A stretch of 26,246 bases of DNA from a virus. The position numbers and the translations under genes were made by a program. This document shows, piece by piece, positions 6,735 through 21,641 of the stretch; positions within the stretch are counted from its first letter, which is position 1; each line of letters starts with the position of its first letter. A model generated the notes under the pieces. That model did no database searches and was not told where the DNA came from. It saw only the letters and a list, made by a program, of their open reading frames with translations. The stretch lies in the IMG/VR virus record IMGVR_UViG_3300045996_001329, positions 1 to 26,246 of that record; one strand, 5' to 3'.

Positions 6735-7565
6735 AGTAGGCATTCAGGAACTGGTCGAACTCGGTGGTGCTGACCTGCCGCCGTTCGGCCGGCGGCGTCT
6801 TCCACCTCTCCACCTCGGCGAGGTACGCCTGGTGACGCCGTTTCGCTACGTCCTCCGGCCGCAGTGCGACTGGCGGCACGAGCGGATACGGGGGCGGCTT
6901 GATCCCACTGCGTGCGTCTTCCGCGCGCCTTTTTTGCAACTCGGGATCGTTGGGGTCCAGGGTGCGGTCGATCCACTCAAGCCCGAGCCAGTAGTGCAGC
7001 ACCTCGTACAGCGCGGCGGTGTTCTCCTCGTGCGCGCTCCAGTTGACGCCCAGCTGCCGGGCGAGTGCCGAGGTGGGCAGATGGACGAGGCGTTCGACAT
7101 GGGCGACGAACTCCCCCGCCGGCCACGTCTCCCACGCTTCCCTGAGCGGGCAGTGGTAATGCTGCCTGAAGTCGACGGTGCAGGCGTCCCACCAAGGTCC
7201 GAGGACCGCGGTCAGGACGCCTAGGATTCCCCCGACTTGTCCCCGTCTTCGGCGCTCCCGTCGTCGGGGCGCTTGAGCATCCCCGCCGCCTGGTAGATGC
7301 GGCGCAAGATCGGAGCGCCGGTCTCTGTCGGCAGGGCGAGTGCCAGCTTCGCGAACGCGGGCCCGTCGGTGTCGCCGACCAGCATGCACAACGCCTTGGT
7401 CGACTGGCCGTCGCTGACCATCTGCCAGAAGTCGACCACCTGCTCGGAGGTGAAGTCCCGCTTCAGGGTCCACTCCCTGCCGCCGAGTCGGATCGTCTGG
7501 GGCTTGAGAGACCGGGACACCACGAGGGGATCAAGGTCGAGTACGTCGTGGCCGCCTTGCGTCAT
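6727..7565 (-). CDS. Tail assembly chaperone long form, by -1 frameshift (gpGT-like)
   Basis: This is the fused product made when ribosomes slip back one base near the end of the first chaperone frame. The first frame ends TCG GGG GAA TCC TAG. The overlapping -1 frame is open through this point and continues as GILGVLTAVLGPWWDACTVD to a TGA at 6727-6729. Slippage on the run of five G (complement of 7229-7233) would join 112 residues of frame one to 167 residues of frame two, about 279 in all. The second frame has no convincing start of its own: its open part upstream is an out-of-frame arginine-rich shadow. Lambda gpG/gpGT and most siphoviruses use the same device; the long form binds the tape measure protein through its T domain. 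The exact slip position is inferred; the overlap and frame relation are seen. Confidence 0.85.
7221..7565 (-). CDS. Tail assembly chaperone short form (gpG-like)
   Basis: This 114-residue protein follows the tail tube gene after nine bases, the standard place of the first tail assembly chaperone. It is a soluble, non-virion protein that helps the tape measure fold inside the growing tube. Visible features are LGGREWTLKRDFTSEQVVDFW, a helical core KALCMLVGDTDGPAFAKLAL, and an acidic low-complexity end (DDGSAEDGDKSGES) as is usual before the frameshift. The ATG at 7565 is preceded by AGGAG with six bases spacing. Near its stop a run of five G allows the -1 shift into the downstream frame. Its length is near the usual size for the family. 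The chaperone call rests on position plus the frameshift layout rather than on sequence identity. Confidence 0.88.
   Translation of the reverse strand: MTQGGHDVLDLDPLVVSRSLKPQTIRLGGREWTLKRDFTSEQVVDFWQMVSDGQSTKALCMLVGDTDGPAFAKLALALPTETGAPILRRIYQAAGMLKRPDDGSAEDGDKSGES
7227..7233 (-). promoter_or_regulatory. Candidate -1 ribosomal frameshift site (GGGGGAA)
   Basis: On the minus strand the heptamer GGGGGAA is read in frame one as ..G GGG GAA. A glycine tRNA on GGG can re-pair perfectly after slipping back one base, and the tRNA for GAA can pair with GGA if a G-U wobble is allowed in the middle. The stop of frame one follows two codons later (TAG at 7221-7223). This is the only clear homopolymer in the overlap close to that stop. 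Confidence 0.65.
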
Positions 7566-7574
7566 GTCGTGCTC

Positions 7575-8123
7575 CTAGAGGAGGGGGTTGCTGGACAGGA
7601 ACGGGATGAGGGGCTTGCCGCCGCTGTCGGGGACGAGAGGCGTGATCTCCATGTCCCAGCCCGCGATCTCCTGCTCGTTGAGGGTCTCCGAGGGACGGTT
7701 GGACAGCTCGGCCTTCTCGGCGTAGTACGCCTTCCAGTCGGTGCCGTCCTGCACGCGGACGATGTAGGCGAACTCCTCCTCGTCGCCCTCGTCCATGCGG
7801 TAGCCGCCGTTGGCCGCGGTGATGGATCCGCCGGTGAGCAGGGTGAGCGCGGTGGCCTTGGACATGTCCACCGGGCGCATCCGGATGACCGGCTCTTCCT
7901 GGCCCTTGCGGGTCTTGTAGGTGCCCTGCTTGTTGAAGATGGGCAGGCGGGTGACCTCGCGGGGACGGTCGATGACGAAGCCCGCCTGGATGCCGCCGAA
8001 CGCCTCCCATCCGGTGAGGCTGGCGGCGAAGATGTCGGCCGGGATCGCGGTTCCGGCGGGCGCGCGGAAGGCGTCTCCGTCCTGCCACACGTTGGCCTTG
8101 GACGGGTCTGCGTAGGTGCTCAA
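7575..8123 (-). CDS. Major tail protein (tail tube)
   Basis: The 182-residue protein is placed between the tail terminator and the chaperones, the fixed position of the tail tube protein, which forms stacked hexameric rings around the tape measure. The sequence begins MSTYADPSKANVWQDGDAFR, has an early TAIPADIFAASLTGWEAFGG and continues with alternating beta strands (FVIDRPREVTRLPIFNKQGT, RMRPVDMSKATALTLLTGG, FAYIVRVQDG), as expected for the tube fold. There is no Ig-like C-terminal extension. The start is TTG at 8123, chosen because a perfect AGGAGG lies five bases before it (complement of 8129-8134). This ribosome binding site can be covered by a complementary segment about 40 bases upstream, described under the leader region. 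High expression would be expected, which makes a TTG start and a structured leader noteworthy. Confidence 0.88.
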   Translation of the reverse strand: MSTYADPSKANVWQDGDAFRAPAGTAIPADIFAASLTGWEAFGGIQAGFVIDRPREVTRLPIFNKQGTYKTRKGQEEPVIRMRPVDMSKATALTLLTGGSITAANGGYRMDEGDEEEFAYIVRVQDGTDWKAYYAEKAELSNRPSETLNEQEIAGWDMEITPLVPDSGGKPLIPFLSSNPLL

Positions 8124-8252
8124 AGCAACCTCCTACTATGGGCCCGGTCGTCGGGCGCTCGTGGGCTGGCCGCCTTGTAGGAGTCGTGCCGTGGCCGCCG
8201 AGAAAGGTCCGGCCCGCCGCGCAAGGCGGCCAGCCCACGGCGGGCCGGAGAT
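8124..8252 (-). promoter_or_regulatory. Structured leader RNA before the tail tube gene
   Basis: This 129-base gap holds several interlocking inverted repeats. Stem A is perfect over 18 bases (8160-8177 with 8222-8239). Stem B is perfect over 11 bases (8209-8219 with 8238-8248). The order of arms is that of an H-type pseudoknot, with a two-base conflict at 8238-8239. A third pairing of seven bases (8130-8136 with 8177-8183) covers the AGGAG ribosome binding site of the tail tube gene and shares base 8177 with stem A. In the sense of transcription, stem B is followed by ACCTTTCTC, a weak uridine-rich tail. The layout suggests alternative folds that either end transcription or translation, or free the tail tube start. 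Function is inferred; the pairings are seen. Confidence 0.55.
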
Positions 8253-8696
8253 CTAGATGTTGTGAATGACGACTTCGATCTGTGCCGCCGCTCTGCTGAG
8301 GGGGGTGTCGTCGCCGCGGCTGTCGTCCGGGTCGAGCGCGCCCACCGCGCGCGGGTGGCACGAGAAGTGCATGGTCTGGTAGGCCCGGTTCCGGACCTGT
8401 TCCAGAGCGCGTTTCCCGCGGGTTGCGATGCGCCACACGATCGGTTCAGCCTCTTCGCCGCTGAAGCCGCCTGCGGGGCAGAAACCGTCGATCTGCACCC
8501 AGGCGCGGTATCCGCCGCCACCGAGAGTGGTTACCGAGTTCACGACCAGCCGTGTGAGCGCGAACGGCTTGGTTACGTCTGACGGTGCCCGAGTGGTGGC
8601 GATCCTGCTGGCGCCGCCGCATGCCGAGACGAACTCGGCGTCCTCCAGCAGCGCTTCGCGGATGGCCCCTGGGATCCAGGGGAGATCGGACTCCAC
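8253..8696 (-). CDS. Tail terminator / tail completion protein
   Basis: The 147-residue protein lies between the HK97 gp10-like gene and the tail tube gene, where the tail terminator is usually found. Tail terminators cap the finished tube and provide the docking face for the head. The N-terminus (MESDLPWIPGAIREALLEDA) is an amphipathic helix followed by strands typical of this fold: ASRIATTRAPSDVTKPFALT, then GYRAWVQIDGFCPAGG and, after a long helix (EPIVWRIATRGKRALEQVRN), the final strand AAAQIEVVIHNI. Helix-strand order and length match the lambda gpU/HK97-like group. The GTG start at 8696 follows the previous stop by three bases, with GGGGG upstream. No catalytic motif is expected. The call rests on gene order and secondary-structure pattern and is fairly secure. 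Confidence 0.75.
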   Translation of the reverse strand: MESDLPWIPGAIREALLEDAEFVSACGGASRIATTRAPSDVTKPFALTRLVVNSVTTLGGGGYRAWVQIDGFCPAGGFSGEEAEPIVWRIATRGKRALEQVRNRAYQTMHFSCHPRAVGALDPDDSRGDDTPLSRAAAQIEVVIHNI

Positions 8697-19552: not shown

Positions 19553-20566
19553 TCAGTCGACGGGGCCGTGGTTCTTCGCCTGCCAGTAGAACGGGAAGTC
19601 CGAGCTGGCGTAGAGCGTGCCCGCGCCCGTGGCCTTGGCCACCACGGCGAAGGTGACGACCCCGCTGTTCAGGTCGCCCTCCGCCACAGTGAAGCCGCGG
19701 GGCGCTGCCTGGTTCGGGAACGGGGCGGCCGGACCTGTGGGATACCAGCCGGGGTCGCCCTCGACGGCGGGGCTTGAGGTGCCCGTGGCGAGGTAGCGGA
19801 CGATGCTCGCGCCCGAGACGACGGCGACGTCGAGGAAGCCGGTCTCCGTGTTGTTGCGCATCCCGTGCGCGCCCAGCTCGACGTAGTCCCCCACCGAGGC
19901 GGGGATGGCGAGGAGGAAGCCGGAGAGGATCTGCCACGCCCCTGCCGTGTCGGGGAGGGTGGTGTTGCCGGAGGTGATGTAGGCCTGCCGCACCACCAGG
20001 CGGGTGGGGACGTCGTCGAGTACCTCTTGCAGGCCGGTGACGTCGGACATGGGGTGCGTGTGTGGGGTCGGAGTGCGGGCGTCCGACAGGCGGGGGTCGT
20101 TGCCCTCCGCCGCGGTGCCCGCGGTGGTGCCGTAGACGACCGTGCCGTCCACTCCCCCGCCTTCGGGGGTGCCGAGGAGGTCGTCGTACTCCCCGCTGTA
20201 GGCCACCGCGGCCAGCTCGGGGGTAGCCGGCGGGACGTAGGAGGACTCGGAGGTAACCACCAGGTGACCCGGTTCGGGCTCGAACGGCACCCGAGGGTCC
20301 AGGTCGACCTTGTAGTACACCCGGTACGCGCCCGGAGTGAGGGAGCCCAGGTCCGACTCGGGGCCGACCAGGACGCGGGCACGGCGGCGGTTGTTGGCCC
20401 ACGTCTCACCCGGCACCCACTCGGCCACCAGCAGATCGGAGTCGCCCGCGGGAATGCCCTTGGGCTTCACGGCCATCCACACCGGTTCGCCGCTCGGGTC
20501 GGTGGTCGACTTGACGGTGGCGTACACGTAGTCGGTGGAGAGGCGGTACATGCGGACGTCGGCCAC
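19553..20566 (-). CDS. Tail fibre-like virion protein located upstream of the terminase
   Basis: This 337-residue protein has the marks of a fibre or tip protein. Residues about 1-120 form a beta-rich attachment domain (VADVRMYRLSTDYVYATVKS on the ATG side, later GSLTPGAYRVYYKVDL). The middle has the fibre linker motif GTAAEGNDPRLSDARTPTPH followed by THPMSDVTGLQEVLDD, which is typical of trimeric tail fibres just before the shaft. The end (GFLLAIPASVGDYVELGAHG onwards, closing SDFPFYWQAKNHGPVD) looks like a beta-sandwich knob. The start is taken as GTG at 20566, five bases after a GGGGG site; GTG at 20569 is equally possible. Lying on the far side of the terminase from the tail genes, it is separate from the main tail operon. 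Function is inferred from motif. Confidence 0.75.
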   Translation of the reverse strand: MADVRMYRLSTDYVYATVKSTTDPSGEPVWMAVKPKGIPAGDSDLLVAEWVPGETWANNRRRARVLVGPESDLGSLTPGAYRVYYKVDLDPRVPFEPEPGHLVVTSESSYVPPATPELAAVAYSGEYDDLLGTPEGGGVDGTVVYGTTAGTAAEGNDPRLSDARTPTPHTHPMSDVTGLQEVLDDVPTRLVVRQAYITSGNTTLPDTAGAWQILSGFLLAIPASVGDYVELGAHGMRNNTETGFLDVAVVSGASIVRYLATGTSSPAVEGDPGWYPTGPAAPFPNQAAPRGFTVAEGDLNSGVVTFAVVAKATGAGTLYASSDFPFYWQAKNHGPVD

Positions 20567-21452: not shown

Positions 21453-21567
21453 GACGTCAACCACCTCTACTGGTTGGCCACGCCCCGGGGGTGTTACCAG
21501 CACCCGCCGGGGTCTTTTGTGCCTCTATCCTACCAAATTCGGGGTGTTTCTGCTGGTAGGAAGGTCG
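21453..21567. other. Gap between HNH gene and tRNA-Trp, with two hairpins
   Basis: This 115-base gap holds no gene. It contains the plus-oriented terminator at 21483-21518 (listed separately) and, closer to the tRNA, CCTACCA (21529-21535) paired with TGGTAGG (21554-21560), a seven-base stem directly after the tRNA 3' end in the sense of transcription. The latter may help end or process the tRNA transcript. The region is richer in A and T than its neighbours around the sequence TACCAAATTC. Confidence 0.4.
21483..21518 (+). terminator. Plus-oriented intrinsic terminator
   Basis: CCCCGGGGGTG (21483-21493) pairs with CACCCGCCGGGG (21501-21512) as an 11-base stem with one bulged G and a loop of seven (TTACCAG). 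It is followed at once by TCTTTT (21513-21518). Stem plus uridine run make this a textbook intrinsic terminator read on the plus strand. The minus strand offers no uridine run. No plus-strand gene is seen to the left, so it may end antisense transcripts running through the HNH gene. Confidence 0.65.
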
Positions 21568-21641
21568 CACGGACAGCCCGATTCGAACGGACACCTCTCC
21601 GATTTGGAGTCGGAGCGCTCTCCCGGTTGAGCTACGTCCGC
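21568..21641 (-). tRNA. tRNA-Trp (anticodon CCA)
   Basis: Read on the minus strand the gene begins GCGGACG and ends CTGTCCGT plus discriminator G. The acceptor stem pairs over seven bases with two G-T wobbles. The D arm is GCTC/GAGC with an eight-base loop holding GG, the T arm is GTCCG/CGGGC around TTCGAAT, the variable loop is five bases. The anticodon stem TCCGA/TCGGA encloses CTCCAAA: T33, anticodon CCA and A37, as in tRNA-Trp. The total is 74 bases including the discriminator, one more than standard, because two bases (GC) rather than one separate the D stem from the anticodon stem. No CCA end is encoded. Phages with Trp-rich proteins may profit from such a tRNA. Confidence 0.88.

Follow-up and report, generated by a model that had tools for sequence, protein, structure and literature searches.

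An antisense hairpin that probably limits tail assembly chaperone synthesis relative to the tail tube by RNA base pairing in a family of actinobacterial phages

We identified a conserved hairpin (H1) in the leader of the major tail (tube) protein gene, the loop of which is complementary to the first codons of the gene for the tail assembly chaperone, located beyond the tail tube cistron. As judged from sequence comparison, RNA base pairing by this antisense hairpin probably limits chaperone synthesis relative to that of the tail tube in a family of actinobacterial phages. The pairing between the loop and the chaperone start is well supported, about as secure as comparative sequence allows, and its effect on expression is predicted. 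The window analyzed here is the whole 26,246-nucleotide stretch of the IMG/VR record IMGVR_UViG_3300045996_001329, and the leader corresponds to a gap of 129 nt between two minus-strand genes, read from 8252 to 8124 (Table 1).

Table 1. Genes and leader features around the tail tube leader of the window
Feature	Position	Strand	Description
Upstream gene, tail-terminator-like ORF	8253..8696	-	stop codon TAG 8255-8253, 3 nt 5' of H1
Hairpin H1	8208..8249	-	5' arm 8249-8238, loop 8237-8220, 3' arm 8219-8208; perfect 12-bp repeat
Antisense segment L in the H1 loop	8220..8232	-	TGGCCGCCTTGCG; complements the chaperone start, 13 bp, no GU
c1, proximal anti-loop copy	8192..8199	-	GGCGGCCA; 8 bp with the loop
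Complement of the tail tube Shine-Dalgarno (SD) region	8177..8183	-	CTCCTAC; pairs with GTAGGAG 8136-8130
c2, distal anti-loop copy	8160..8177	-	16 bp inside the loop, 18 bp in total
Small hairpin H3	8142..8156	-	GCCCG ACGAC CGGGC
Tail tube SD	8129..8134	-	AGGAGG; from sequence
Major tail (tube) protein gene	7575..8123	-	TTG start; PHROG 117, E 1.5e-16; Pfam PF25681
Tail assembly chaperone gene	7221..7565	-	start codon ATG 7565-7563; SD AGGAG 7576-7572
c3, target of L	7549..7561	-	CGCAAGGCGGCCA; nucleotides +5 to +17 of the chaperone gene

With the tail tube protein as the sole query, only Gordonia phages (Nyceiraevirus) were retrieved, and profiles built from the Gordonia phage proteins extended the set to about 40 distinct viral and bacterial contigs, including a copy with 99% identity in a Nocardioidaceae MAG (L037). 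Most of these relatives carry a leader of 90-155 nt in the same position. In clade A, which includes window-like loci, H1 is found a few nucleotides past the stop codon, and in clade B (Rhodococcus, Gordonia and similar) the same gap contains a 17-pair hairpin with compensatory changes at 12 of its 17 pairs. The product of the gene upstream of the leader shows 25% identity (E 7e-6) in a pairwise comparison with the protein annotated as tail terminator in Gordonia phage Dogfish; a tblastn search with this gene gave no phage match. The gene behind the leader does begin with TTG, as the first-pass annotation of this DNA had stated. The following gene is placed between the tail tube and tape measure genes. 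Its product is homologous to the corresponding proteins across the locus set (E down to 1e-30) with a profile that reaches clade B proteins, and its pairwise similarity to the annotated Gordonia chaperone is non-significant. The 3' end of the gene (7230-7221, minus strand) reads GGGGGAATCC and encodes a C-terminal GES, and a -1 ORF (7473-6727, minus strand) overlaps it, an organization that we take to resemble that of frameshifting tail chaperones. Judged by profile and synteny, through which it is linked to Gordonia phages, gene 7221..7565 is a tail assembly chaperone gene. In many relatives GESSAS or a near variant forms the chaperone C-terminus.

The chaperone start in the window reads ATGACGCAAGGCGGCCAC, and the part of it designated c3 (7561-7549) pairs with loop positions 8232-8220 at 13 of 13 bases over a distance of about 660 nt that spans the whole tail tube cistron. 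When we searched the relatives for the anti-loop motif, a further copy recurred just past the tail tube gene in nearly every one of them, and this copy is the chaperone start. In a test set of 29 loci, 125 nt of leader were compared with 22 nt around the chaperone start; the best helix connected the H1 apical region with the first codons in 29/29 loci and had a length of 8-13 bp, with a single exception in geometry (L033), where the pairing bases lie at the loop edge. After chaperone starts were swapped among phages, 0/100000 permutations reached the observed sum, and swaps restricted to the same clade in a set thinned to <62% tail tube identity gave a z score of 5.4 (0/20000); the loci share ancestry, and therefore these permutation figures are not strict probabilities. 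The signal is also confined in position: when the operon was scanned every 20 nt, beginning 5' of the leader and ending in the chaperone gene (about 80 windows), the z score peaked at 11.3 over the chaperone start and nowhere else exceeded 3.6.

Synonymous sites within the target provide further evidence. In loci with proline at codon 2 of the chaperone gene, the codon is CCG, CCT, CCA or CCC, and its variable base is complemented by the loop base opposite in 20/20 cases; likewise, the loop base opposite the third position of glutamine codons (CAA or CAG) is complementary in 13/13 cases. Because these changes are synonymous, selection on the protein cannot be the source of this covariation. 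In addition, an inserted gene after the tail tube gene in L012 shifts the chaperone gene by about 350 nt, and the loop match moves along with it. One feature of long-range translational repression of the MS2 type, conserved complementarity of a distant segment to a translation start, is thereby seen in these loci. The first-pass annotation had picked out this conserved RNA element and misassigned it, having overlooked the match of the H1 loop to the start of the next gene; on the comparative evidence, the partner that is mainly conserved is the chaperone start, whereas the tail tube ribosome binding site had been named as the target.

Loci that lack the leader show no loop match at the chaperone start. 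In five of them (L029, L032, L046, L030 and L079) the chaperone start overlaps the tail tube stop or abuts it within a few nucleotides, which we count in favor of the model as a different way to tie both genes. A leader is present without a match in L041, where the chaperone start is overlapping, and in L034 and L036, where the chaperones are displaced; L027 and L028 have an H1-like leader and a chaperone gene that was not located. These loci speak against the model. In phage TM4 a leader is present and no match was obtained at the starts tested, and in phiC31 and Giles a comparable leader is absent. The distribution suggests two kinds of restraint on the chaperone, namely stop-start overlap or an own ribosome site combined with the antisense hairpin, as seen in a small number of lineages. 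As a separate observation, a chaperone SD that is spaced and independent seems to accompany the leader.

Within the window, none of 200 dinucleotide shuffles folds as well as the leader RNA itself (z -3.8). The first-pass annotation had described the leader as structured, pseudoknot-capable and multi-state, and covariation in relatives, the check that it had named, backs this description for both interleaved helices. In an 11-sequence alignment of clade A, H1 and the loop-c2 helix together have double changes at 11 of 24 pairs (5/12 in H1 and 6/12 in loop-c2) and 90.5% of cells paired, a level as high as which was reached by 0/500 shuffles and from which slid versions fell far below. Across 11 H1 pairs and the 8-bp core of the loop helix no cell is unpaired, and the sole non-Watson-Crick pairs are G-U on the transcribed strand, which favors RNA over DNA repeats. 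Of the individual pairings described earlier, the 18-base stem (8160-8177/8222-8239) is indeed a 100% complementary inverted repeat, formed by the H1 loop plus two stem bases with 8177-8160; the second stem is present at a length of 12 bp (8208-8219/8238-8249) instead of 11; and CTCCTAC (8177-8183) is complementary to GTAGGAG (8130-8136) as reported. The claim that these states exclude each other holds in the window, which has an unusually long stem, where the full 18-bp stem and the full H1 have bases 8238-8239 in common and are incompatible; it does not extend to most relatives, in which the helices do not overlap and are compatible with a pseudoknot.

Most relatives with a long leader contain two anti-loop copies, c1 (usually 8-16 nt after H1) and c2 further on, each of which fits the loop of its own phage best (0/50000 swaps for either copy), and most also contain a small hairpin like H3 directly 5' of the SD. 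The pseudoknot loops measure 0-10 nt (L1), 0-4 nt (L2) and 5-45 nt (L3), and in many members only 0-2 nt separate H1 from the loop helix. With a stem loop that pairs outside its own segment, and with conservation of both helices, the leader can be classified as a predicted H-type pseudoknot. In each phage record a covariance model of clade A recovered one full element, invariably upstream of the tail tube gene; its other matches were reverse-strand echoes of the GC-rich H1 stem or weak partial ones. In wider genomes, the covariance model and the tail tube profile found few prophages. Two of the leaders (L012:2931-2965 and L043:2916-2950) have tandem chaperone-start mimics, with two near-perfect copies per leader.

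We consider it rather probable that the H1 loop serves as a built-in antisense segment occluding the chaperone start, with c1 and c2 as decoys that mimic this start; the direction of control and its purpose are what we infer from the arrangement. A loop paired to the start codon or to the codons right after it would block ribosome loading, and chaperone synthesis would be kept low relative to the tail tube or be linked to ribosomes that complete the tail tube gene. In most loci the tail tube stop is positioned 9-36 nt 5' of the chaperone start, and ribosomes ending the tail tube gene would meet the helix, so that chaperone synthesis could be coupled to tail tube synthesis. The inserted gene in L012 excludes that coupling, and thus plain repression is the conserved minimum. 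The 660-nt contact may be disrupted by translating ribosomes. Action of the loop in cis is our assumption, and action in trans is possible.

The leader copies are predicted to mimic the chaperone start, hold the loop in the pseudoknot and set or switch the strength of repression. In clade A, c1 and c2 would compete for the same loop, with c1 emerging first and being the weaker partner and c2 emerging later and being the stronger. Pairing energies of the loop with the leader copy and with the chaperone start are often near-equal (-28.6/-29.0, -25.1/-24.8 and -22.8/-22.1 kcal/mol), and in clade A the better leader copy often differs from the chaperone start by no more than about 2 kcal/mol. It is conceivable, and we hold this tentatively, that these tailed dsDNA phages possess a three-way RNA switch, in which the loop chooses between the chaperone start and one or two leader decoys of near-matched energy and in this way sets the ratio of tube to chaperone. 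In the window, pairing with c2 (-37.5 kcal/mol) outcompetes pairing with the chaperone start (-28.7 kcal/mol), so that the leader alone would free the chaperone start, which speaks against the model.

Other explanations of the leader were weighed against antisense repression of the chaperone. The leader states could hide or expose the tail tube SD and control only tail tube translation. The SD complement that this requires is present in the window and in L043, L011 and L010, and shuffles matched the 7-bp pairing in 6/200, 8/200, 3/200 and, marginally, 19/200 cases, respectively; clade B leaders have a small hairpin whose 5' arm is able to pair with the tail tube start, with a weak signal (56/20000). 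In most other relatives the SD pairing does not rise above shuffles, and the loop match to the chaperone start would be left unexplained, which makes control of the tail tube alone quite improbable. The earlier suggestion that a pairing hides the tail tube AGGAG consequently applies to the window and its nearest relatives, as a weak and local feature rather than a general one. Attenuation, which had also been proposed, finds no counterpart in the leader: a promoter and terminator scan gave no sites, no intrinsic terminator-like site was found there, and a U-run after H1 is lacking in the relatives. Readthrough of the upstream stop codon was considered and rejected, given that the frame past the stop is closed in L009 and the length of the gap is no constant multiple of three. 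As a side observation, clade B leaders (L018, L020, L021, L067, L082, L094 and others) contain, in the region from about -60 to +9 relative to the tail tube start, a GCTCAC 5' arm of the small hairpin that complements its own 3' arm GTGAGC; the same arm complements the region of the tail tube GTG start, GTGAGCAC, and could hide this start.

The hairpin might instead act in RNA processing or stability, if H1 stacked on the loop-c2 or loop-c3 helix formed a near-continuous duplex of about 25-28 bp that is cut by a nuclease, for example RNase III, and the cut released or protected tail tube mRNA. Stems that flank rRNA are duplexes processed by nucleases such as RNase III, the spacing of 0-2 nt in many members would indeed give long near-continuous duplexes, and the two segments lie on either side of the tail tube gene. 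The pairing is centered on the start codon or first codons and not on intergenic space, however, which points to initiation, and the 3' partner in L012 has remained with the start of the chaperone gene rather than with the end of the tail tube gene; we therefore regard processing as unlikely. It is very improbable that the repeats act at the DNA level, as a site for a co-evolving phage DNA-binding protein similar to the stoperators of L5. While the motif is phage-specific and occurs once in inverted and up to three times in direct orientation, it sits at the apex of a covarying stem, deviations in the helix core comprise G-U pairs and zero mismatches, one direct copy is pinned to the start codon, and the covariance model has one full-length match per phage record. 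The many oriented copies across a genome that are typical of stoperators were not seen in the window, where 10 motif matches at up to 3 mismatches compare with 7.4 expected, which is no excess. Hardly any probability attaches, finally, to a hairpin processed into a small RNA that acts in trans on the chaperone mRNA: the geometry of loop-start pairing is like that of antisense RNA hairpins and no data point demands action in cis, but each chaperone transcript from the operon would bear its own hairpin, so that action in trans seems redundant.

No known RNA family accounts for the leader, as Rfam searches matched only a tRNA in the window and nothing in the loci of 20 relatives. We also scanned viral contigs for H1-like hairpins and found similar GC hairpins before other genes in other phages; no downstream anti-loop copy was seen beside them in the examples examined, and the recurrence of such hairpins without this copy indicates that a GC hairpin alone is ordinary. 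Among actinophage-like contigs, L110, L147, L117 and L109 have GC-rich short-loop hairpins just before small genes, with no obvious anti-loop copy.

Antisense repression of the chaperone start has partial parallels in several known systems. In plasmids of the ColIb-P9/IncB type, a leader hairpin loop forms a pseudoknot with a distal segment that activates repZ, and an antisense RNA blocks this pairing. There as here, the loop pairs near the start of a downstream gene; in the phage it is the start itself that the pairing covers, and repression instead of activation is predicted. CopA and RNA-OUT are antisense transcripts made separately from their targets, and the loop of their hairpin is complementary to the region of a translation start. 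The phage loop shares this complementarity, whereas its antisense segment belongs to the same operon mRNA as the target. Base pairing between distant segments of one phage mRNA is familiar from the coat-replicase translational coupling of MS2, where a downstream gene has its start buried in structure until translation of the upstream gene exposes it (PMC9894550), and from Qbeta, where the loop of a hairpin and a segment about 1200 nt distant form a long-range pseudoknot (PMC3561173). Unlike these ssRNA phages, the phages described here are tailed and have dsDNA genomes, the hiding strand in them is the loop of a dedicated hairpin that lies a whole cistron 5' of its target, and their leader bears its own decoy copies of the target. 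The pseudoknot in the leader of T4 gene 32 is a translational operator and possibly the sole viral example for autoregulation of translation (PMC3014915). It is likewise an H-type pseudoknot in a phage mRNA leader, 5' of the ribosome binding site, but it is a protein-binding operator for the adjacent gene, while the loop discussed here matches the start of another gene. In the open-access literature we did not find any hairpin of a tail operon described as antisense to the start of a neighboring gene.

How a low amount of chaperone and hundreds of tail tube subunits are made from one late mRNA is, to our knowledge, largely unexplained beyond frameshifting. A conserved antisense hairpin on the chaperone start with built-in decoys would constitute a specific mechanism that is testable to the single base, and the element occurs in isolated Gordonia phages (Nyceiraevirus) as well as in uncultured phages. 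More generally, covariation across genes at synonymous sites can expose long-range RNA contacts in phage operons, and such contacts would escape covariance-model searches of single intergenic regions.

Several further segments of the window outside the operon deserve mention. Positions 21472-21515 (44 bp), where there is no annotated feature, are 97.7% identical to the cyanophage Microcystis phage MinS1. A tRNA gene is located at 21568-21641 on the minus strand (Rfam RF00005, 50.5 bits). Positions 20066-20140 (75 bp) share about 90% identity with several mycobacteriophages in their tail genes, in a genome that is otherwise unrelated to them, and part of this segment also resembles Tsukamurella phage TPA2.
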